This document shows, piece after piece, positions 12,178 to 63,170 of a stretch of DNA of 64,000 nt. A program made the position numbers and the translations under genes. Positions within the stretch are counted from its first letter, which is position 1, and each line of letters begins with the position of its first letter. The DNA is taken from contig JAQVER010000004.1 in assembly GCA_028697885.1 (NCBI GenBank), positions 1 through 64,000 on the forward strand. The letters run 5' to 3'. The notes beneath the pieces were generated by a model that was given only the letters and a program-made list of their open reading frames with translations, was not told where the DNA came from and made no database searches. The stretch is from Desulfocapsaceae bacterium (GTDB lineage: Bacteria > Desulfobacterota > Desulfobulbia > Desulfobulbales > Desulfocapsaceae).

Positions 12178-12328
12178 ATTTTTTTGCGACTCTTCTTCCG
12201 CCAGTTAGGTCAAGCATAAAAGATATAAACAAATAAGATATATCTTATGAACTATTAATCTGATTTAACTTAGTCTAAAAAGGTTCAGAATTTAGACAGT
12301 TAAACGCTATGCACCGGCATCAAAAAAA

Positions 12329-13033
12329 TAACACATCCACGTTTGATAAAGTGTGTTATTATAAATCGTAATGGGGCGATTCTGTTAAAAAATAATCTAT
12401 GAGTTATACGTGGATGTGTTATAATCTTTAACCGGTGCTGTTGGTGATTTTAACTGTGTAAATTACAATCTTAATCTTTTTTAAATTGTCTTCTGATGCT
12501 GGTTATTAAGTATAACTACTATTTTATACTGTTATTATGTGTATTGATTTTAACTGTGTAAATTACAATCTTAATCTTTTTATTTGTGGGTAGGCATGTT
12601 GAAATATCGCATGTTATTTGGTATGTTTCTTGATTTTTTGTGGGGCTGGTTCCTTCGATCCTGATATATTTGAAGGGATGCACATCCATATTTGCTATAT
12701 ACGTGGATGCTTAATCTGATTTAAGATGGCTGTTTTATGTGTTGACGTGGATGTGTTTGTGTGCTTGTGGCTTGTGCGTGGATACGTAACATATCAATAT
12801 GGATATGTTATTAGAATAATTGTGGACGTGTCACATATCAATGTGGATGTGTTTACATACTCGATAATGGATGTGTTTTGGTGTTTTGTGGATGTAAATA
12901 ATGTAAAATTGATACGAACTGTTGAAATGTTCAGGGTGCGAAGATGTTTAATTTCAAAAAATTAAATATGCCGGGAACGTCTCACAATTCTCGTATAGAG
13001 TAACACATCCATGTATGTACATATCCACATTAA
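12329..13033. repeat. Iteron array, candidate replication origin
   Basis: About a dozen copies of a motif near ACGTGGATGTGTTA in both orientations, for example 12329-12342 (minus) and 12408-12421 (plus), which are exact inverse copies, and 12680-12691, 12699-12710, 12745-12758, 12777-12789, 12799-12810, 12821-12834, 12841-12855, 12867-12880, 12887-12899, 13001-13014 and 13020-13030. The stretch has no convincing gene and is flanked by AT-rich DNA. Such clustered repeats are typical of plasmid and archaeal origins (initiator-binding sites). Confidence 0.6.
12445..12581 (+). repeat. 37-bp direct repeat, 100-bp period
   Basis: The 37 bases at 12445-12481 are repeated exactly at 12545-12581 (key start TGATTTTAACTGTG, end CTTAATCTTTTT). 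They lie inside the iteron region. No coding function; possible second protein-binding site of the origin. Confidence 0.7.
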
Positions 13034-13361
13034 TTAATATTATATCTGCAATTGTCGCAAGGTAAAATATTTCAAGAAATTCTTGAAATTTTAAGCTGTT
13101 TTTTGCCAGCGCAGGCTAAAATTATAGAATATATACGAAAATAATATTGATTTAGAAAATCGGATCGATACTCAGTTAAAATTAACCGGGATAAATATTA
13201 TCTTAATTATCGTACTTATAGTAAATTATAAATACTATTCATAGGAAGCAAATTTGACACAATATATATACCAGAATATAGATATTTAACAGATCTCAAT
13301 GGGAACGCAGAAAGAAATTAGGGCAATATATAGACCTTAAGTTGAAAAGGATAGGTACATA
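13034..13361. other. AT-rich non-coding stretch next to the iterons
   Basis: No gene seen. It contains a 10-bp-arm palindrome at 13069-13089 (ATTTCAAGAA, one base, TTCTTGAAAT) and long A/T runs that could unwind easily. Near 13261-13270 an ATATATATA box could promote the gene at 13362. Confidence 0.4.
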
Positions 13362-20834: not shown

Positions 20835-22007
20835 ATGGCGGACGACGATTTCAAAATAAGCGAGCCGGCGGATAAACCCATAGGTTATCCTCCAAAAAAC
20901 CCCATTATTAAACAAGCTCTCCAAAACCTTTATATTTCTATAATGGGTGCTTTAGACCTGGGCGACTTCGATACTTTTCTCAGGGAATCACAAGACCTGA
21001 CTTATGACGAAGCTAAGGATAAGATGATCCGGGAATTCGGAACATCAAAAGACCTGTCCGAAGCCAGTCTAAAAGCTAAAGATAAAGAAGCGGCATTGAA
21101 GATGCAGATAGCCGAACAGGAAGCACTTGCAGAGCAGCGGACGCTTGAACAGGAATTCGCGGAATTGGATGAGATCGCACGGAAAAGGTTAGGGGAGAAC
21201 CTGGAGTTATCAAGAAGGAATACTACTCTCGATCAGGAAGTAAAAAAATTGAAAGAAGAACTTAGTCGGGCAAAAACACCACTACCTCAACCACTACCTC
21301 AACCACTACCTCAACCACTACCTCAACCACTACCTCAACCACTACCTCAACCATTACCTCAACCATTACCTACTGAAATACCTAAACCGCTACACGGCAG
21401 TATGTATGCCGAGTATAAGAAACGGATCAGCCAGATAATCACAATAGCCGAGGTAAATGATTTAGCCAACGAGATCTTTGATATTCTTGAACACGGGGAA
21501 TTCGATAAACTCACCATGCAGGATATTGATGAAATGCGTACTGAGTTAAATAAAGTTGCAGAAACCAGGGCGATCAAACTTGCAGAAATGAAACTTCCCG
21601 GTACAAAACCAAAAATTACCAGGCCGAAAGCATCTGAGGAGGTAGAAAAAGAGCAGCTACCTAGAAAAAAAGAAAGACGAGAGGAACCTACTACCCCCAT
21701 CCCATCAGGGAAGGTACAAGTAGTTTATGTATATATAAGACCGGACACAGAAATATTCACATCAATGGGTGAAGAATATATTAGGGATTTTGAACTCGAA
21801 AGGACGATAAAAAGAAATCGCCTGTTATCATTCCCGGAGCATTGGTACACATTATCACCCTGGGGAAAAAGAGAAGTATATGGGTGGGATTTAGCAATGG
21901 CATTACGAGAAGCAGTTCGCATACATAAATTTTCATGGGACTCTTTAATTTATGATTATGGAATTCCGGCAGAATATATTAAAGAATGGCGGAATAAAAA
22001 TAAATAA
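20835..22007 (+). CDS. Coiled-coil protein with PLPQ repeat
   Basis: 390 residues. Helical and coiled-coil first part (about 55-148), then seven PLPQ units and a PLPT (149-180), then a helical domain and a basic linker. The last 90 residues form a compact domain (VVYVYIRPDTEIFTS ... KFSWDSLIYDYGIPAEYI). The Pro-rich repeat probably works as a stiff spacer. The DNA repeat (21279-21374) keeps the frame because units are 12 bases. No known family. Confidence 0.55.
   Translation: MADDDFKISEPADKPIGYPPKNPIIKQALQNLYISIMGALDLGDFDTFLRESQDLTYDEAKDKMIREFGTSKDLSEASLKAKDKEAALKMQIAEQEALAEQRTLEQEFAELDEIARKRLGENLELSRRNTTLDQEVKKLKEELSRAKTPLPQPLPQPLPQPLPQPLPQPLPQPLPQPLPTEIPKPLHGSMYAEYKKRISQIITIAEVNDLANEIFDILEHGEFDKLTMQDIDEMRTELNKVAETRAIKLAEMKLPGTKPKITRPKASEEVEKEQLPRKKERREEPTTPIPSGKVQVVYVYIRPDTEIFTSMGEEYIRDFELERTIKRNRLLSFPEHWYTLSPWGKREVYGWDLAMALREAVRIHKFSWDSLIYDYGIPAEYIKEWRNKNK
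21279..21374 (+). repeat. 12-bp tandem repeat inside a gene
   Basis: Six identical CCACTACCTCAA units (21279-21350) followed by two variant units beginning CCATTACCT. In-frame, coding PLPQ. The perfect identity of six units suggests recent slippage expansion. Confidence 0.9.
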
Positions 22008-22782: not shown

Positions 22783-23232
22783 ATGCCCCCTGTATATCAA
22801 GAAACACTGGAACGCCTGAAAACCTCTAACGACAGAAAGGAAATAGCAATAGCGATGGTTGAACTTGCAGAACACGCAGAGCGATCATCTATATTAAGAG
22901 AAATCTTAAAAAAAACAAAACTCAGATATCCTTTTGATAATTTTGAATATGTTAAATGCCCTGGCAGGAAAGGATACTGGCGGCGTTCACCGGCAAATCG
23001 GGAGTTTCCCACAGTCGCCCAGGCAGAATTCAGGCTGGCAGCCTCAAAGGTAAATTCATCAATATATGGGATGAAAGGAATGGTTGACAGACTGGATGGG
23101 ACACAGGTACCTCTCAGGGACATTGTAGCTGGTGAAATGCTGCGGGGTACGAAGTTCACAAGCGATAAGGTAAAAGAAGAGCGTAAAAAAGAAAGAACTA
23201 TAGAACGGCTTACAAGGGAAGAACCATATTAA
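22783..23232 (+). CDS. Unknown protein, 149 residues
   Basis: Helical start (ETLERLKTSNDRKEIAIAMV), a middle with KCPGRKGYWRRSPANREFPT that may bind nucleic acid, then FRLAASKVNSSIYGMKGM and a charged tail. This middle and second half resemble hypothetical proteins common in phage structural regions; not a named family. Confidence 0.45.
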   Translation: MPPVYQETLERLKTSNDRKEIAIAMVELAEHAERSSILREILKKTKLRYPFDNFEYVKCPGRKGYWRRSPANREFPTVAQAEFRLAASKVNSSIYGMKGMVDRLDGTQVPLRDIVAGEMLRGTKFTSDKVKEERKKERTIERLTREEPY

Positions 23233-23289
23233 AGGTGGCATGCAAATAAGAATAATAAGCAGCAGGTAACCATGATGAAAGAGAGGCAG

Positions 23290-23800
23290 CAAAAGCATTA
23301 AGGGGGCAGCAGTTCAGCAAGAAAGACCGCAATTCTTATATATGATGCAGTAATAGTTAGTTTGTTCTTGCTGTGTGCAAGTGCTTTCCGGGTTACGGAA
23401 GGCAGTCCTGGGCAAGACGTGAAACTACCCCCAGATATTCCCAATAACACCATGAAGGGATGATGAGGACGTGCCGCGTAAGCGGTTTGTCCTCGGACCT
23501 GTTGCACTCATCACCTATAGAGATCAAGACGCGAAAGCCGAATAGCGATGAGAACCCTGAACAATGCTTCAGGTAAGGGCATGCTTTGCCCGTGGAGGAT
23601 TAGCGGACAGATGAAACATGCTGTTGAACGCTCCAAAGCTGCGGCAGGACAAAGAGCTTCCTGCTAGGCGAGTAACTATAGTACGGAAACGTAGAAGCTT
23701 GATCTCGATACAATTCATAGATGATGCAGATGGCCGGGTGCGTCACCTGCATGATAGACAGCACTCCGAGGCATGGGATTAGTCCGTTGCGTAATGAAAC
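23290..23800 (+). ncRNA. Large candidate structured RNA (about 500 bases)
   Basis: No protein frame is plausible here, yet helices are packed along the strand: 23302-23306 with 23428-23432; 23315-23323 with 23365-23373 (9 bp); hairpin 23382-23390 with 23396-23404 (9 bp); 23465-23470 with 23489-23494 enclosing CCGC-GTAA-GCGG at 23474-23485; 23556-23561 with 23568-23573; 23577-23581 with 23587-23591; 23602-23605 with 23629-23632; 23644-23649 with 23659-23664; TACG-GAAA-CGTA at 23682-23693; 23724-23729 with 23747-23752. Several GNRA loops occur on the plus strand only. It resembles the large ornate phage RNAs (GOLLD, ROOL) in style; the class is not identified. Confidence 0.6.
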
Positions 23801-23820
23801 CTTTTCCCGGATTCCTTTAA

Positions 23821-24027
23821 ATGACAACAACAGGTTATAAAATCCCCAACCTGGTAATGACAATCACGACTTATGAGTTAAGTGATAATAACTGGATTGC
23901 CACAGTAACACACACTTTTTTTGGGGATACCGAGACTGAACTCAAAGGTATAATGGAAGCTCATAAAAAAACAGACGTTTTCTTTGCGGCAAGTTTCACG
24001 GGTAATTTTAACGGTATAACTCTCTAG
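23821..24027 (+). CDS. Small conserved element protein, 68 residues
   Basis: Directly follows the large RNA. Reads TTYELSDNNWIATVTHTFFG, DTETELKGIMEAHKKTDVFF and AASFTGNFNGITL, a pattern I associate with small phage proteins of unknown function. No ribosome site is seen, so expression may start inside the RNA region. Confidence 0.5.
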   Translation: MTTTGYKIPNLVMTITTYELSDNNWIATVTHTFFGDTETELKGIMEAHKKTDVFFAASFTGNFNGITL

Positions 24028-24078
24028 AACAGCGAACCACGGATTTTAAAAGTATAAAAAAACAAACAAAACCCGGAA

Positions 24079-24723
24079 TCACCATGTCTGTCCGAAATGC
24101 TGTGCAGCTATAACGACATCTACAATATCGATTATTCCGTCACCGTTAATATCGTAGGCAGCATTCGATTGCATATAATACTGGGCAAGAAGAGTTAAAT
24201 CTGCAATATCTACAATACCATCCATATTTACATCGTATTTTGGGGCAACCACAACCCTTGATGACGACAATGTAAATGGTATATAATTCCCGTTAGGATC
24301 CACAAGTTTAATATTAAGAGGAGTCAGGGTACTATTATGGGTTACTCCAATGGTGGTAATGTTTAAAGTCATCAAAACACCGGGGTTAGATACGCCCGAA
24401 TTAGGTCCGAGAATTACTGCAAAGGTATAACCCGTGGATCCATTTGCAATAGTTCCAGGCATAAAAAACGTCTGTGATCCGTACAGTTTCAAATAATTTC
24501 CTTCGGTTATTCCATTTACTCTTATAATCGTAGGATCCCATGATACATTTGCCTGCCATCCTGAAGCCGAGTTCCCGTTAGGAATTATGTTTATATCCAC
24601 ATTAAAAGTCTGTCCAAGTTTAGCAGTCTGATTTATTATGCTGATATTTGCAGGTGTTGCCAAACCGACAACTGAAAACATCGAAAGCAATACCAAGAAC
24701 ATCAGGAATGGTTTTAATATCAT
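24079..24723 (-). CDS. Secreted cohesin-dockerin protein
   Basis: About 214 residues. The start at 24723 follows GGAGGC. A signal peptide (MILKPFLMFLVLLSMFSVVG) precedes a cohesin-type beta domain (about 25-150: GQTFNVDINIIPNG, WQANVSWDP). Two dockerin EF-like repeats (DVNMDGIVDIADL and DINGDGIIDIVDVV) end the protein. Cohesins and dockerins bind each other; having both suggests self-assembly or attachment to host surface scaffolds. Such proteins are common in Methanosarcinales and relatives. Convergent with the previous gene. Confidence 0.85.
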   Translation of the reverse strand: MILKPFLMFLVLLSMFSVVGLATPANISIINQTAKLGQTFNVDINIIPNGNSASGWQANVSWDPTIIRVNGITEGNYLKLYGSQTFFMPGTIANGSTGYTFAVILGPNSGVSNPGVLMTLNITTIGVTHNSTLTPLNIKLVDPNGNYIPFTLSSSRVVVAPKYDVNMDGIVDIADLTLLAQYYMQSNAAYDINGDGIIDIVDVVIAAQHFGQTW

Positions 24724-24782
24724 ATAATAGCCTCCATACAACTACTTTACTTTTTAAACATATAAAAGGTATGTAATTTGCA

Positions 24783-25385
24783 TCATTTTACACCGATTTG
24801 CACAGCAGCATTTTTCGAGATCAAAGCCCTGGCATTCGCAACAGGGATAGTAGCGATTTCTTCTTTCCTAAGTGTATAGTTCCGCATATCACTACCGACA
24901 AAGGTAGGAATAGTAATCAGCATACGCACCAGCATAAAATCTTTTTTTAAATCAACACAGGGTTCAACCTTCTTAGTCGCCACAGACTCCGGGACAGTAA
25001 CCTTTTTTTCATCGTGAAGTTTTTTACTTCTCCACTCATTCAGTGCACCGAACATCACATCATATAATTTCTTCTCTTCTGGAATCAGGTTCTCAGGCTC
25101 ATGCTGTTCTTTCTGTTTCAGCGATTTCCGGATAGAAGCTTCTTTCACGATTTTCCCCATCCTGATCTCAAGGATTGACTCAAAATTTATTTTCGCTACA
25201 TTAAGGTCGGAAGTCAGGATATTATACTTCACACCATCTTCGTCCGGGTTTGTCCGATCTATATTATTTTTAATTTCTTTAAATAATACATGAGCTTTCT
25301 CGTAAAAATCCTTATCAATGGCAGACAACTTAGCTTTTTGTTCTTCTTTAAGAACATCTTTCAAATTTAGCTGTGTGTCAGGCAT
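24783..25385 (-). CDS. GINS complex subunit (Gins51-like)
   Basis: About 200 residues; ATG at 25385 chosen (TTG at 25388 in frame upstream). The A-domain shows DFYEKAHVLFKEI, an ILEIRMGKIVKEA helix as in Sld5/Psf1-type subunits, and the EEKKLYDVMF helix. The C-terminal B-domain reads LVRMLITIPTFVGSDMRNYT, LRKEEIATIPVANARALISK, the FVG-x-D pattern of archaeal Gins51. GINS joins MCM and GAN/Cdc45 to form the replicative helicase. Together with PCNA and MCM in this window it forms an element-encoded replication set. Confidence 0.75.
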   Translation of the reverse strand: MPDTQLNLKDVLKEEQKAKLSAIDKDFYEKAHVLFKEIKNNIDRTNPDEDGVKYNILTSDLNVAKINFESILEIRMGKIVKEASIRKSLKQKEQHEPENLIPEEKKLYDVMFGALNEWRSKKLHDEKKVTVPESVATKKVEPCVDLKKDFMLVRMLITIPTFVGSDMRNYTLRKEEIATIPVANARALISKNAAVQIGVK

Positions 25386-25463
25386 CAAGTATTATAGATA
25401 GCTTTATGTATATTAAAGCTATTGTTTATAGCTAACAACTATTCAGGAGAAATTAACAGAAGT
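25386..25463. promoter_or_regulatory. Divergent promoter between GINS and RHH gene
   Basis: Overlapping AT boxes (ATGTATATTAAAG, 25405-25418) sit about 25 bases before the GINS start, fitting a leaderless minus transcript. The plus transcript has CAGGAGA before ATG 25464. AGCTAT/ATAGCT repeats lie in between and may be operator sites. Confidence 0.4.
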
Positions 25464-25679
25464 ATGGCCGATGAAGAGGAACAAGTTTACATTGGAGCAC
25501 GTGTACCAAAGCGGATTTCAACGATATTAAAAGAAATCTGCCAGAAAAGAGGCGAGGACGTTGCAGATTTTATAAGAAAAAATCTGTACATACAGCTTGC
25601 AGAAATGGGATATCTGACTGACGAAGATAAAAAAGCCCTGGGGATAAAGGTAGAGAAACTAAAAACAGAGAAGGAGTAA
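25464..25679 (+). CDS. Ribbon-helix-helix protein, 71 residues
   Basis: VYIGARVPKRISTILKEICQ, then KRGEDVADFIRKNLYIQLAE is a typical ribbon-helix-helix DNA-binding unit. The C-terminal 29 residues are identical to those of the next gene because of a DNA duplication. Probably a local repressor. Confidence 0.65.
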   Translation: MADEEEQVYIGARVPKRISTILKEICQKRGEDVADFIRKNLYIQLAEMGYLTDEDKKALGIKVEKLKTEKE

Positions 25680-25984
25680 AGGAGATATGGAACCACAGGA
25701 ATCTGAACAGCGGCAGAGAACACGAAAAGAGATATTGTCTGATGGACGCTCATGCAGGATTAATTTGAGCCACGGCGAAACTCTAATTATAGAAATATTA
25801 CTGGATATAAGGGCACAGAACGAACAGATAATAAAATTATTAGAAAAAGGAGAAAATCCCAACATACAGCTTGCAGAAATGGGATATCTGACTGACGAAG
25901 ATAAAAAAGCCCTGGGGATAAAAGTAGAGAAACTAAAAACAGAGAAGGAGTAAAGGAGATATGGAACCACAGGAATCTGAACAG
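25588..25984 (+). repeat. 123-bp direct repeat, 274-bp period
   Basis: 25588-25710 and 25862-25984 are identical except one base. The repeat contains the 3' end of one gene, the ribosome site AAGGAGAT and the first eight codons (MEPQESEQ) of the next. Confidence 0.92.
25687..25953 (+). CDS. Chimeric small protein made by duplication
   Basis: 88 residues. The first eight residues equal those of the 25961 gene and the last 29 equal those of the 25464 gene; the middle (ILSDGRSCRINLSHGETLII, EILLDIRAQNEQIIKLLEKG) is unique and coiled-coil-like. Sequence identity at both ends shows a recent tandem duplication with an inserted middle. Confidence 0.55.
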   Translation: MEPQESEQRQRTRKEILSDGRSCRINLSHGETLIIEILLDIRAQNEQIIKLLEKGENPNIQLAEMGYLTDEDKKALGIKVEKLKTEKE

Positions 25985-26191
25985 AAGGTTATAGACGCTA
26001 TGAAAGCTCTGGAAATAGCATCTGATCATCTTGCCAAACAAAATATTTTGGTATTTAAGAACGAAGCACAACGTATATCAAGGGGAACATTTGGCTGGCT
26101 GGTAGATTTAAAAGGATTTACTGGATTTGTGTTTGTAAAATATGATGGTATAGTCGTATCAGTAGTTAATCTAGAAAAAGGGGGTAAGTGA
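25961..26191 (+). CDS. Unknown protein, 76 residues
   Basis: Helical start (IDAMKALEIASDHLAKQNIL) followed by a beta hairpin domain (GTFGWLVDLKGFTGFVFVKY, then VVSVVNL). AAGGAGAT ribosome site. Overlaps the next gene by ATGA. No family recognised. Confidence 0.5.
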   Translation: MEPQESEQKVIDAMKALEIASDHLAKQNILVFKNEAQRISRGTFGWLVDLKGFTGFVFVKYDGIVVSVVNLEKGGK

Positions 26192-26838
26192 TGGAACCTG
26201 ATATATCAGAATTTAAGGACTTCAAACTTGTTCGAGCTATGTATGTGAGTCCCGAGATAATTGATCAATATTTTGGAGTTCTTGCAGGCTCGCCCGCCAT
26301 GAAATCATATGTTACTGCAATAGACCCTGCTACGATACTCCCGATAGAATCCTACACCTTCCGCGATCCTAAATCTTCGGTGTATTGGTTCAACATAACT
26401 TTCGTTGAAGGCAGAATTATCATCACTGGCGACTGTGGTGACAATGTGTTCGTAGTTGGCGGCACTAACGAGGATCTAAAGAACTGGCTCATTGACCTGG
26501 ATATGGATTACGCTCTTGGCAAGAGCAAGCAGGGCAGGGAATACTACGACCGGGAATATGCTGAGAGATATATAAAAGAACGGTTAACAGATGATGGCGA
26601 GCGCACTGAGGATGAAGCGAAAGCCATCATGGAGCAGTTAGATTTTGAGAATCATATTTTATTACAGAACTCAATGCGTGCTACAAACGAACTTCTGAAG
26701 ATATTCCCTGATTACTGGGAGTTGAGGTTATGGCGCTGGAATAATTATCAGAAAATGCAATACAAGCAGCTTGTGTTTGCCGGGAAGTTTCTGAGATATA
26801 GAAAAACCACAAGTGCCACTGGAATAGGAGGAAAATAA
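26191..26838 (+). CDS. Unknown protein, about 215 residues
   Basis: N-terminal alpha/beta half (SSVYWFNITFVEGRIIITGD, CGDNVFVVGGTNED), then a helical acidic half (GREYYDREYAERYIKERLTD) and a Trp-rich helix (WELRLWRWNNYQKM). It looks like a phage-type single-domain protein; no function recognised. Confidence 0.5.
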   Translation: MEPDISEFKDFKLVRAMYVSPEIIDQYFGVLAGSPAMKSYVTAIDPATILPIESYTFRDPKSSVYWFNITFVEGRIIITGDCGDNVFVVGGTNEDLKNWLIDLDMDYALGKSKQGREYYDREYAERYIKERLTDDGERTEDEAKAIMEQLDFENHILLQNSMRATNELLKIFPDYWELRLWRWNNYQKMQYKQLVFAGKFLRYRKTTSATGIGGK

Positions 26839-26841
26839 ACT

Positions 26842-27414
26842 ATGAGCAAATCAAAAATCTTTAGGTGCGGTACATGTGGTACAACAGTTTCAGTCAGTGA
26901 AGAAGCCATTAAAATGATTACCACTGGAATTGAATTCATCCTTAAGACTCCAGACATCAATGATAGACATAAAATTGCATATCTATCAGATCATGAAGTT
27001 GGCACTAATTTTGGAAGAGTAATCTTACCTGAAACAGAGATAATAGAAGTTATATTAAATCAAATATTGATCTGTGGTGCAGATAGGAATTGGGAAGAAG
27101 TACCACAGGTGCCAAAAGAAGAAAAAACTTTGTGCAAGCGTGATGTTATTATTGGTCACACCAAAAAAGAATGGAAAGCTGCAAAAGAAATCAAACCACA
27201 TACTGGTGAGGCACTCTGTAAGTGCGGGCACATTATCAGCGTAGTAGGTACTAAGTGGCAACATATTGATGAAATAGACGAGGACGACAAGCGTGCAGAA
27301 TTTTTTGGGCGTCAGATAAACACATGTATGGGTTACGGAAAATTCCGTAAATATCGGGAAACATGCTATCACTGTGCCTGTATCGATCCGTTACCTGCGG
27401 AGGAAAAACCATGA
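26842..27414 (+). CDS. Cys-rich zinc-binding protein, 190 residues
   Basis: Pairs FRCGTCG (residues about 7-11), GADRN region, CKCGH (about 126-130) and ETCYHCAC (about 174-180) suggest two zinc sites. Between them are helical and charged segments. Overlaps the next gene (ATGA). Unknown function. Confidence 0.5.
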   Translation: MSKSKIFRCGTCGTTVSVSEEAIKMITTGIEFILKTPDINDRHKIAYLSDHEVGTNFGRVILPETEIIEVILNQILICGADRNWEEVPQVPKEEKTLCKRDVIIGHTKKEWKAAKEIKPHTGEALCKCGHIISVVGTKWQHIDEIDEDDKRAEFFGRQINTCMGYGKFRKYRETCYHCACIDPLPAEEKP

Positions 27415-53331: not shown

Positions 53332-53820
53332 TTATGATATTATTCTTTCAAATTTTAATTTTTTATTACCTATTGTACCGCGTCTGTTAGGTCTACTCTT
53401 TGACCATGAGTATAATCTTTGGATCCCCAAATAAGTCCAATTAGCTGCTTTGTAAATGGTCCCTGAATGAATTCCGCTGTCAGCATAAGCAATTATTCGT
53501 TTTTCTTTACGATTTGCTCTTATCCATTTTTCAGCTAGTGATAATGCCCTGGATTCACTGTTTTTAGGGCTATCAAAAAGAAACATTCTTGATAATTCTA
53601 ATGTATTTTCCTGATCTTCCAGTCTTGCTACGGGATGGCAAAATATCATTACGCCTGCAAGTTCACATCCACAAAATATGCCCAAACTAAATTTATGCAT
53701 TGCTGGGGCATAGCCTAAATAATGGTTTGCTGTTATTATTCTTCTTGCTATTTTCCATGATACAGGTAACACATGTGTGGGAAGAATAGTTATTGAAATG
53801 GTTTGTAGTTTTTGATTCAT
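53332..53820 (-). CDS. Mom-like DNA base modification protein
   Basis: 162 residues. ARRIITANHYLGYAPAM, KFSLGIFCGCELAGVMIF, ELSRMFLFDSPKN and the block YADSGIHSGTIYKAANWTYL with G following fit the phage Mu Mom/GNAT-like family, which adds an acyl-amide group to adenine N6 and blocks host restriction. The motif (Y-A-D ... H-x-G-T-I-Y-K-A) is the conserved catalytic region. Substrate in this host is not known. Confidence 0.75.
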   Translation of the reverse strand: MNQKLQTISITILPTHVLPVSWKIARRIITANHYLGYAPAMHKFSLGIFCGCELAGVMIFCHPVARLEDQENTLELSRMFLFDSPKNSESRALSLAEKWIRANRKEKRIIAYADSGIHSGTIYKAANWTYLGIQRLYSWSKSRPNRRGTIGNKKLKFERIIS

Positions 53821-57837: not shown

Positions 57838-57945
57838 GTGTCATAACTGACAGGTAAACTATGACATTATGTCATAATAAAGGTTACTATTTTAGAAGAA
57901 TAAAAATCAAAATGTCATAACTTACCCATGAATATGACGTTATTA
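57838..57945. promoter_or_regulatory. TGTCATAA operator array
   Basis: The box TGTCATAA (or its complement TTATGACA) occurs at 57839-57846, 57859-57878 (two facing halves, ATGACAT then ATGTCAT), 57912-57919 and with a mismatch at 57931-57942. It lies upstream of the minus-strand operon that starts at 57751. Likely binding sites for a regulator. Confidence 0.5.
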
Positions 57946-59652
57946 AGTTAAAAGTCTCACATATATCAAGGGAATATTCGTACTGATTGTGTTTGCTCCG
58001 GCTGGGAATGGATCTGGTAATGGGGCAAAAATAAAAGCCGGTGCATATCCTACTCCCGGAGTCGTTGGTAATGTGTTAGGATATCCTAGAATTGGAAGTG
58101 TGGCTGCGATCGATGCTGCTCTTAATCCAGGGGTTCCATCCGAAACCGCTACCAGCCAATATAATGTACTCTTAATTAATTTCTGGTTTATAATTATTGT
58201 TTTTACTCCGCCGCCTCCGGCAGCCGAGGAGTCAACCGTCCCGGCATCGAGGATCAAACTGCCGGGATATAGATTTCCGTTATCTATATAAATTCCGAGC
58301 CGTGTGCTTGACGCCCCTGCCGTGCCTGCAGTAATGTTTATAGCGATCTCATCCAGATTTATAGTATTTGGAGTAATGAATGGAATTGCGACCATGGTGT
58401 TCGCGACTAAACCTGCTGTTGTTAATGTCGCCCCGCTGAGTGGTGTTGTATAAAATCTGTCTGTAGTAACACCTGTTATTCTATAAGAATGAATATCATC
58501 TCCGATATTTACTGATGGAATTGTTGCTTGTGCAAGCTGCTTGATCGTATCGTATGTATTGAATTCAGGGGCTAACGAATCATACCAATTGTAAGTACCG
58601 TAAGATTTTACGGCCGGAGCAGATCCCATGATCCCTCCGTGTATGGGATAGATAAATACCATTCCTTTGGCTTTACAAAAACTGTCAATAATTCTTAAAA
58701 ACTGGTTTGCCTGGTCTATAGTTAATTTCTGGCCGAACGCTTCGAGCGGTCTGTAATCTGGACCTTGGTCGAACATAACAAAAATAGGAACATTGCCCAA
58801 TTGTTGTTTAATTGCCAATATATATGCGTTCCATTTTACGTCATCCATCGTGAGAGTTTCTATCTCCTGGGTGGATGGAGTAGTCATGACTGCATCGAGA
58901 TTTTTCATGGCAAATGAAGAACTTAATAATATGTCTGTTGCCCAGCTTATAACTTCTACTCCATAATTATGAATATCATCTACAATTTCAGATGCCGCTG
59001 CAAGTGCCGCTTTTACTGAAATGTGATTTACATCCCCTGTTAGCTGTGCCATCAGCCTCGCTTGTTTTGTATTAATATCTATTAAAATAGATGTAATCCC
59101 ATAATCTATTTGCCTCTTTACCCAGCTTAAAAATAACTTCTGGTAATCCGCATTTGATTGATCCGGAAAATAATATAACATCTGGTTTTTCGGATCGTAT
59201 GGCTGTCCCTGGACTGCCCAGCCATGACTCACGGCCACGCTCGTCTGGAAGTCCTCTTTAGTCGTTGGGATCCCCCATTTACCCGGGTCTAATGCCATAT
59301 TCCATGTCTGATCTTTTGTAAATGCTTCTCCTGTCTCTTCGTTCCGGCATTCAGGATTTAAAAATTCAGAAGAGACACTGCCCCCGATTATTATATCTGG
59401 TATGCTGGTTTTTATAACCGATACTGCGTTTGCAAGACGTTCAAAACTGTATCCTCTCGTATTGCACGTCGCCTGGTCTGCTAATGGTAAATCAGAACAT
59501 TTTTCTGCTACCGGCTTTACTCTTGCAAATCCCAGATTTATATATTGTGTTTTTGTTTCTTTTAGAAGAGAAACCGTACTGGTAAGAAATCTCATGCCGT
59601 CGGTTGTCGAGCGGTATTGAGACGCTATCTTTACTTCTTTGAGGGTATGCAC
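57943..59652 (-). CDS. TIM-barrel plus beta-sandwich surface protein (fusion)
   Basis: 569 residues. Residues 1 to about 380 match the 61929 protein: a (beta/alpha)8 glycoside-hydrolase-like barrel with segments IGGSV, WGIPTTKEDFQTSV, FVMFDQGPDYRPLEAF and YPIHGGIMGSAPA. Residues from about 383 match the separate protein at 59662. The two domains come together here, so they probably work as one machine, likely receptor or glycan binding and cutting. Large stretches of DNA are nearly identical between the copies (see repeats). Confidence 0.7.
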   Translation of the reverse strand: MHTLKEVKIASQYRSTTDGMRFLTSTVSLLKETKTQYINLGFARVKPVAEKCSDLPLADQATCNTRGYSFERLANAVSVIKTSIPDIIIGGSVSSEFLNPECRNEETGEAFTKDQTWNMALDPGKWGIPTTKEDFQTSVAVSHGWAVQGQPYDPKNQMLYYFPDQSNADYQKLFLSWVKRQIDYGITSILIDINTKQARLMAQLTGDVNHISVKAALAAASEIVDDIHNYGVEVISWATDILLSSSFAMKNLDAVMTTPSTQEIETLTMDDVKWNAYILAIKQQLGNVPIFVMFDQGPDYRPLEAFGQKLTIDQANQFLRIIDSFCKAKGMVFIYPIHGGIMGSAPAVKSYGTYNWYDSLAPEFNTYDTIKQLAQATIPSVNIGDDIHSYRITGVTTDRFYTTPLSGATLTTAGLVANTMVAIPFITPNTINLDEIAINITAGTAGASSTRLGIYIDNGNLYPGSLILDAGTVDSSAAGGGGVKTIIINQKLIKSTLYWLVAVSDGTPGLRAASIAATLPILGYPNTLPTTPGVGYAPAFIFAPLPDPFPAGANTISTNIPLIYVRLLT

Positions 59653-61928: not shown

Positions 61929-63170
61929 CTATCCATTGGCTAGTTGCTTGATTGTCTCAAATGTACTGAACTCAGGCGCCAGTGAGTCATACCAGTTGTA
62001 GGAATTATATGATAATATTGTCGGAGCAGATCCCATGATCCCTCCGTGTATGGGATAGATAAATACCATTCCTTTGGCTTTACAAAAACTGTCAATAATT
62101 CTTAAAAACTGGTTTGCCTGGTCTATAGTTAATTTCTGGCTGAACGCTTCGAGCGGTCTGTAATCTGGACCTTGGTCGAACATAACAAATATGGGCACAT
62201 TCCCCATCTTTGTTCTGATACCTGCTATATAAGCGTCCCACTTTGCTTCATCCATTGTGAGCGTTTCAATCTCCTGGGTGGATGGTGTAGTCATTACAGC
62301 ATCGAGTCTTGGTAATCTATAAGGAGAATTTAATAATATGTTTGTCGCCCAGCTAATAACATTTGTTTTTATATTAAATGATGCCCCGTATTCATGTATC
62401 CTATCTACAATTTGTGATGCCCCTGCAAATGCATCCTTTACGGAAATATGGTTTATATTTCCTGTTAATTCTGCCATTAACTTCGCCTGCTTCGTATTTA
62501 TATCGATTAATATAGAAGTGATTCCGCAATCTATTTGCCTTTTTACCCAGCTTAAAAATAAATCCTGATAATCTGGATTTGATTGATCTGGAAAATAAAA
62601 AGGCATCTGGTTTTTCGGATCGTATGGCTGTCCCTGGACTGCCCAGCCATGACTCACGGCCACGCTCGTCTGGAAGTCCTCTTTAGTCGTTGGGATCCCC
62701 CATTTACCCGGGTCTAATGCCATATTCCATGTCTGGTCTTTTGTAAATGCTTCTCCCGTCTCTTCGTTCCGGCATTCAGGATTTAAAAATTCAGCCGAAA
62801 CGCTACCGCCAATTATAATATCTGGTATGCTGGCTTTTATTACTGATACGGCATTTATAAGCCGTTCAAAACTATCCCCGTAAATATTACAATTGTTTTG
62901 TTCGTTTTGCGGTAGATCAGAACATTTCTCAGGTATTGGTGTTATCCTCGCAAAAGCCAGGTTGATATATTGGGTTTTTGTCTCTTTGAGAATAATAATA
63001 ATATCAGTTATAGATCTCATATTATCTGTTATTAAACGATATTGGGATACGATTTTTATATTATTAAGCGATTGCTGAACTGTTGGTTTTCCTCTGATTA
63101 GATAATATAATGCTAATAATGATGCTCCCACGCCTGCTCCGATTATAACTTTTTTTGTAGTCTCTGACAT
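61929..63170 (-). CDS. Membrane-anchored TIM-barrel protein
   Basis: 413 residues. N-terminal membrane anchor (VIIGAGVGASLLALYYLIRG), then the glycoside-hydrolase-like barrel (IGGSVSAEFLNPECRNE, GITSILIDINTKQAK, NPQ-like FDQGPDYRPLEAF). Paralog of the 57943 barrel but without the beta-sandwich tail. Catalytic residues cannot be assigned. Confidence 0.65.
   Translation of the reverse strand: MSETTKKVIIGAGVGASLLALYYLIRGKPTVQQSLNNIKIVSQYRLITDNMRSITDIIIILKETKTQYINLAFARITPIPEKCSDLPQNEQNNCNIYGDSFERLINAVSVIKASIPDIIIGGSVSAEFLNPECRNEETGEAFTKDQTWNMALDPGKWGIPTTKEDFQTSVAVSHGWAVQGQPYDPKNQMPFYFPDQSNPDYQDLFLSWVKRQIDCGITSILIDINTKQAKLMAELTGNINHISVKDAFAGASQIVDRIHEYGASFNIKTNVISWATNILLNSPYRLPRLDAVMTTPSTQEIETLTMDEAKWDAYIAGIRTKMGNVPIFVMFDQGPDYRPLEAFSQKLTIDQANQFLRIIDSFCKAKGMVFIYPIHGGIMGSAPTILSYNSYNWYDSLAPEFSTFETIKQLANG

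Follow-up and report, generated by a model that had tools for sequence, protein, structure and literature searches.

A candidate structured RNA with strand-specific folding in a non-coding stretch of an archaeal element

We identified a non-coding stretch in an archaeal element that folds, on one strand, beyond what is expected by chance. Judging by its modelled fold, the stretch probably encodes a genuine structured RNA that is new and lies outside the known families, and we see an even chance that positions 23379–23735 form the core of a free-standing non-coding RNA acting in trans for the element. All positions refer to the window, that is, the whole stretch of DNA analyzed (64 000 bases), which comprises bases 1–64000 of a 71,354-base contig.

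A non-coding stretch with high G+C content

The 588 non-coding bases at 23233–23820 are flanked by ORF149 upstream (22783–23232) and ORF68 downstream (23821–24027), both on the plus strand and both with a coding score of 0.14. Scored against the element's own codon usage, the three ORFs of 54–87 residues within the stretch obtained −0.08, −0.12 and −0.02 per codon; on the same scale, ten neighbouring or short genes all scored between 0.02 and 0.16, and the values for known shadow ORFs were −0.11 to −0.24. None of the three had a Pfam match. The stretch is not protein-coding, in line with a first-pass annotation of this DNA, which had found no credible reading frame in 23290–23800. The same annotation had regarded the length of the gap as unusual in itself, which it is not: AT-rich gaps of 548, 519 and 407 bases are also present in the window. 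What is remarkable is the high G+C content of the gap, which amounts to ∼50% in the core versus 25–37% in most of the other gaps.

Strand-specific folding of the core

On the plus strand, the core 23379–23735, whose limits were set after the fold had been seen, was 25.0 kcal/mol more stable than its dinucleotide shuffles (z −5.57), as against 9.7 kcal/mol (z −1.84) on the minus strand. The plus-strand value is the extreme of the window at its length: the excess surpassed that of every one of 206 tiles of 357 bases covering the whole window on both strands (mean −1.7, sd 5.5, best −17.1 kcal/mol), for which z-scores were calculated from few shuffles per tile. As a yardstick, 357 bases of a real group II intron (locus L032 in genome G549, see below) reached a z of −1.86 on the sense strand. 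The full 598 bases folded only mildly better than their shuffles (z −1.8 and −2.1 on the two strands), because the signal is confined to 23379–23735 and is absent from both the 5′ part and the 3′ tail.

Two further measures were calculated for the plus and minus strands. In base-pair entropy, 23495–23735 fell below every one of 300 plus-strand shuffles, whereas the minus strand gave an ordinary value. Similarly, two GNRA tetraloops on stems of at least four pairs were predicted on the plus strand, a number that none of 150 shuffles reached (shuffle mean 0.07), and none on the minus strand of the stretch. These are the GTAA and GAAA loops of the first-pass annotation, which had correctly described them as GC-closed (by C-G and G-C pairs) and confined to the plus strand.

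Nevertheless, the stretch might be non-coding DNA of raised G+C, such as a decayed foreign sequence, that folds well by chance and yields no functional RNA at all. Raised G+C by itself favours stable folding, the limits of the domains were drawn only once the fold was known, the full 598 bases reach a z of only −1.8, and no homologues of the candidate RNA were found. Furthermore, isolated 150-base windows elsewhere in the window reach similar or lower z-scores, down to −4.7; it is the 357-base scale, not that of 150-base windows, that sets the core apart from the rest of the window. We regard a chance fold as unlikely: the excess is relative to shuffles of identical composition, it is restricted to one strand and it lies above 206 of 206 tiles, and both the entropy and the tetraloops point in the same direction.

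Predicted architecture and expression of the RNA

The predicted structure of 23290–23812 contains >15 helices, most of them with a mean pair probability >0.8, and seven have at least nine pairs, exceeding the ten or more helices, several of nine base pairs, that had been claimed previously. The core is divided into two subdomains on the plus strand. Its 5′ subdomain (23379–23494; z −4.43, 0 of 300 shuffles) is predicted, also on the basis of pair probabilities, to consist of a hairpin (23380–23406), a stem (23408–23434) and a 12-bp hairpin with the GTAA tetraloop (23465–23494). In the 3′ subdomain (23495–23735; z −3.49, 2 of 300 shuffles), which has the low entropy on the plus strand only, a long predicted helix (23495–23512/23720–23735) surrounds a multi-branched domain. 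This inner domain (23520–23706; z −4.10, 0 of 300 shuffles) would be closed by a 9-bp helix, GAGATCAAG/CTTGATCTC (23520–23528/23698–23706), and would carry five or six hairpins, among them those at 23556–23573, 23577–23591, 23593–23635 and 23643–23665 as well as one with the GAAA loop on a TACG/CGTA stem (23682–23693).

Outside the core, a motif scan revealed a TATA-like box, CTTATATA, at 23335–23342 on the plus strand, 44 bases 5′ of the core, which would imply a transcription start at ∼23365. We treat this box as no more than suggestive, because 42 motifs of the same class occur in the window on both strands. Significant structure begins only 3′ of the box. A predicted 13-bp plus-strand helix whose loop contains the box (23315–23373; z −1.5) is probably not part of the RNA. 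The 3′ tail (23736–23808, plus strand; z +0.24) shows weak hairpins and possibly constitutes the 3′ end of the RNA, with the short T run at 23803–23806 (TTTT) as its terminator; no other terminator candidate, and no clear one, was found between the core and ORF68. The first-pass annotation had proposed a structured RNA of ∼500 bases. A non-coding RNA candidate that folds strongly on one strand is borne out, but since neither 23315–23373 nor the tail is significant, the core comprises ∼360 rather than 500 bases.

That the RNA is structured has good computational support, and from the above features we infer the following course of events. Transcription of the plus strand would start from the TATA-like box at 23335 and give a transcript extending perhaps from ∼23365 to 23808, which would fold into two subdomains, the 5′ one rich in hairpins and the 3′ one multi-branched. 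The GNRA loops could be available for tertiary contacts, and the RNA would act in trans, most likely by providing a scaffold to which proteins of the element or the host, or other RNA, would bind. We favour a free-standing RNA because the folding excess is strand-specific, both subdomains are significant, the GNRA loops and the low entropy are found on the plus strand only, there is no coding signal, G+C is ∼50% and a TATA-like box lies 5′ of the core. Weighing against it, and keeping the model evenly poised, are the orphan sequence, the post hoc core limits and the lack of a clear terminator before ORF68.

A possible leader of ORF68

The chief functional rival of a free-standing RNA holds that the stretch is a long leader acting in cis on ORF68. 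The end of the core is separated from the ORF68 start codon by 85 bases without a strong terminator, and no Shine–Dalgarno match was found for ORF68. In addition, the arms 23497–23511 and 23821–23835 are complementary (80% over 15 nt). The helix 23495–23512/23720–23735 excludes pairing of 23497–23511 with the ORF68 start, so that alternative folding could switch translation on or off. However, several complementary pairs are expected by chance at such a size, others were indeed found, and the complementarity is near chance level; Shine–Dalgarno matches are also missing from many other genes of the element. The candidate resembles long mRNA leaders and riboswitches in its position directly 5′ of a small gene and in the possible competing pairing at the start of that gene. 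It differs from them in having no Rfam riboswitch match, in a length of ∼360 nt, which is very long for a leader and far above what is typical, and in that no relative was found that keeps the candidate RNA together with ORF68. ORF68 itself has a weak match to PHROG 1487 (E 0.02), and neither the 186 genomes of the Methanoperedens order nor phages yielded a convincing homologue of it. Overall, we consider a leader function improbable, and a free-standing RNA remains our preferred explanation.

Search for homologues

Covariation among homologues is the usual proof of a structured RNA. A comparison with Rfam, to which the first-pass annotation had pointed, yielded nothing credible, either at gathering score across the window or at E 10 within 22800–27000; no family was matched, GOLLD, ROOL and group II introns included. 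Searches with blastn against plasmids and phages returned only chance matches of ∼25–40 bases, and DNA searches of the family and phylum of the genome bin that contains the contig, as well as of 186 genomes of the order to which a Methanoperedens relative of the element belongs (see below), gave chance-level matches only. A single-sequence covariance model of the inner domain (23520–23706), run on the same 186 genomes, produced one full-length match of 20.1 bits (E 0.004 per genome, ∼0.7 for the set of 186), which we rejected as a homologue as it sits within a helicase gene. Exact motif scans of IMG/VR gave 0, 12 and 1 matches; the 12 had little in common beyond the motif, and the single match was located in a phage protein gene. 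With no homologue in any of the collections searched, the RNA is an orphan.

ORF149 offered another way into related elements, as it has homologues in 5 of the 186 genomes of the order. The sequence behind these homologues differs from the candidate RNA, and no comparable fold was found there. Two of these places have features of their own. In genome G549 (contig C42; L032:7389–8260, minus strand), a group II intron with domain V/VI, lacking a long reverse transcriptase ORF, lies directly behind the ORF149 homologue. In genome G534 (contig C274; L031:3590–3900), repeated GCATAACAGTTATGC-like palindromes occupy the corresponding position and are possibly the origin of that element.

The intron in G549 raises the question of whether the candidate is the relic of a group II intron that has diverged or been truncated, a domain I-like part without the catalytic end, dead or dependent on help in trans, and a short TAGGCGAG...GTAGA stretch does look similar. 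We disfavour this explanation and hold it to be very improbable: the domain V/VI model RF00029, which found the G549 intron at 49.9 bits, gave no match at E 10 in 22800–27000, the D1–D4 models did not match even at E 10, and when the candidate was aligned locally to the G549 intron, 206 of 500 shuffles reached its best score. An nhmmer comparison with 30 group II loci and the G549 intron also gave no hit, although many of these loci may omit domain I, and domain I diverges fast, which makes similarity over domains I–IV a weak test. The candidate shares with the group II introns of the Methanoperedens order (RF00029, RF01998 and related) the character of a large folded RNA with GNRA loops and the same element lineage, one of them being located at the syntenic place in G549. 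Unlike them, it has no domain V/VI, no D1–D4 match, no reverse transcriptase and no above-chance similarity.

The host element

Among the genes of the contig are those for MCM, a GINS subunit and a PCNA-like sliding clamp, all of them proteins of archaeal replication. The MCM shares 58% identity with one in a Candidatus Methanoperedens MAG. There, the gene is surrounded by chromosomal genes and belongs to an apparently integrated element, which has an integrase gene next to a tRNA gene. Gene content and this integrated relative agree with the archaeal element named in the first-pass annotation and mark it as associated with Methanoperedens, a methane-oxidising archaeon. None of 92 other genomes of the bin's family had an MCM helicase match; the bin is therefore probably bacterial and the contig mis-binned. 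An archaeal SSU rRNA model gave no match in the bin, which is uninformative because this model also responds to bacterial sequences. The same 127 bases occur at both ends of the contig, which makes a circular element of about 71.2 kb probable. No match to the element was present among the CRISPR spacers of one relative, and scanning IMG/VR with the protein sequences of ORF149, MCM and a likely surface protein gave no relatives.

Several other features of the element were noted. An AT-rich, gene-poor region at 12178–13100 contains TGGATGTGTT and the complementary AACACATCCA many times and in either orientation; these copies look like the iterons of a replication origin. A Mom-family protein, from a family known from phage DNA modification, is encoded by this archaeal element at 53332–53820 on the minus strand (Pfam PF25680, E 5e-27). 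The proteins of 57943–59652 and 61929–63170 (minus strand) are 79% identical over 379 residues, suggesting that a gene for a likely surface or structural protein was recently duplicated. Within the ORF at 20835–22007, a 12-base unit is repeated 7.8 times in frame (21278–21371) and encodes repeated PLPQ. Tandem repeats inside genes are a known feature of Borg elements (PMC9879509).

Comparison with GOLLD and ROOL

In the literature searched, large ornate RNAs of mobile elements have been described from bacteria and their phages. The candidate belongs to no described RNA family and resides on an archaeal element; if real, it would bear on whether large structured RNAs are general to mobile elements. 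It also provides a concrete sequence to seek in existing metatranscriptomes. We keep the claim modest, because it concerns a single orphan sequence.

The GOLLD and ROOL RNAs found in bacterial phages and prophages often, although not always, lie near tRNA islands, and they form oligomers; the ROOL studied has 659 nt, and many GOLLD members exceed 800 nt (PMC12286853). The candidate's significant structure of 357 nt is smaller than either. It further differs from these RNAs in being carried by an archaeal element, in the absence of any tRNA or tmRNA from the window and in having no relatives. Their covariance models gave no match at gathering score in the window or at E 10 in 22800–27000, and the comparison drawn in the first-pass annotation does not extend to membership. 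That the candidate might be the first representative of a new class of large structured RNAs on archaeal mobile elements, forming a self-assembling or protein-loaded particle as ROOL and GOLLD do, is an analogy that we consider decidedly unlikely to hold. The likeness is one of kind: as with GOLLD and ROOL, we would be dealing with a large, multi-branched non-coding RNA that is carried by a mobile element and has no obvious protein partner.
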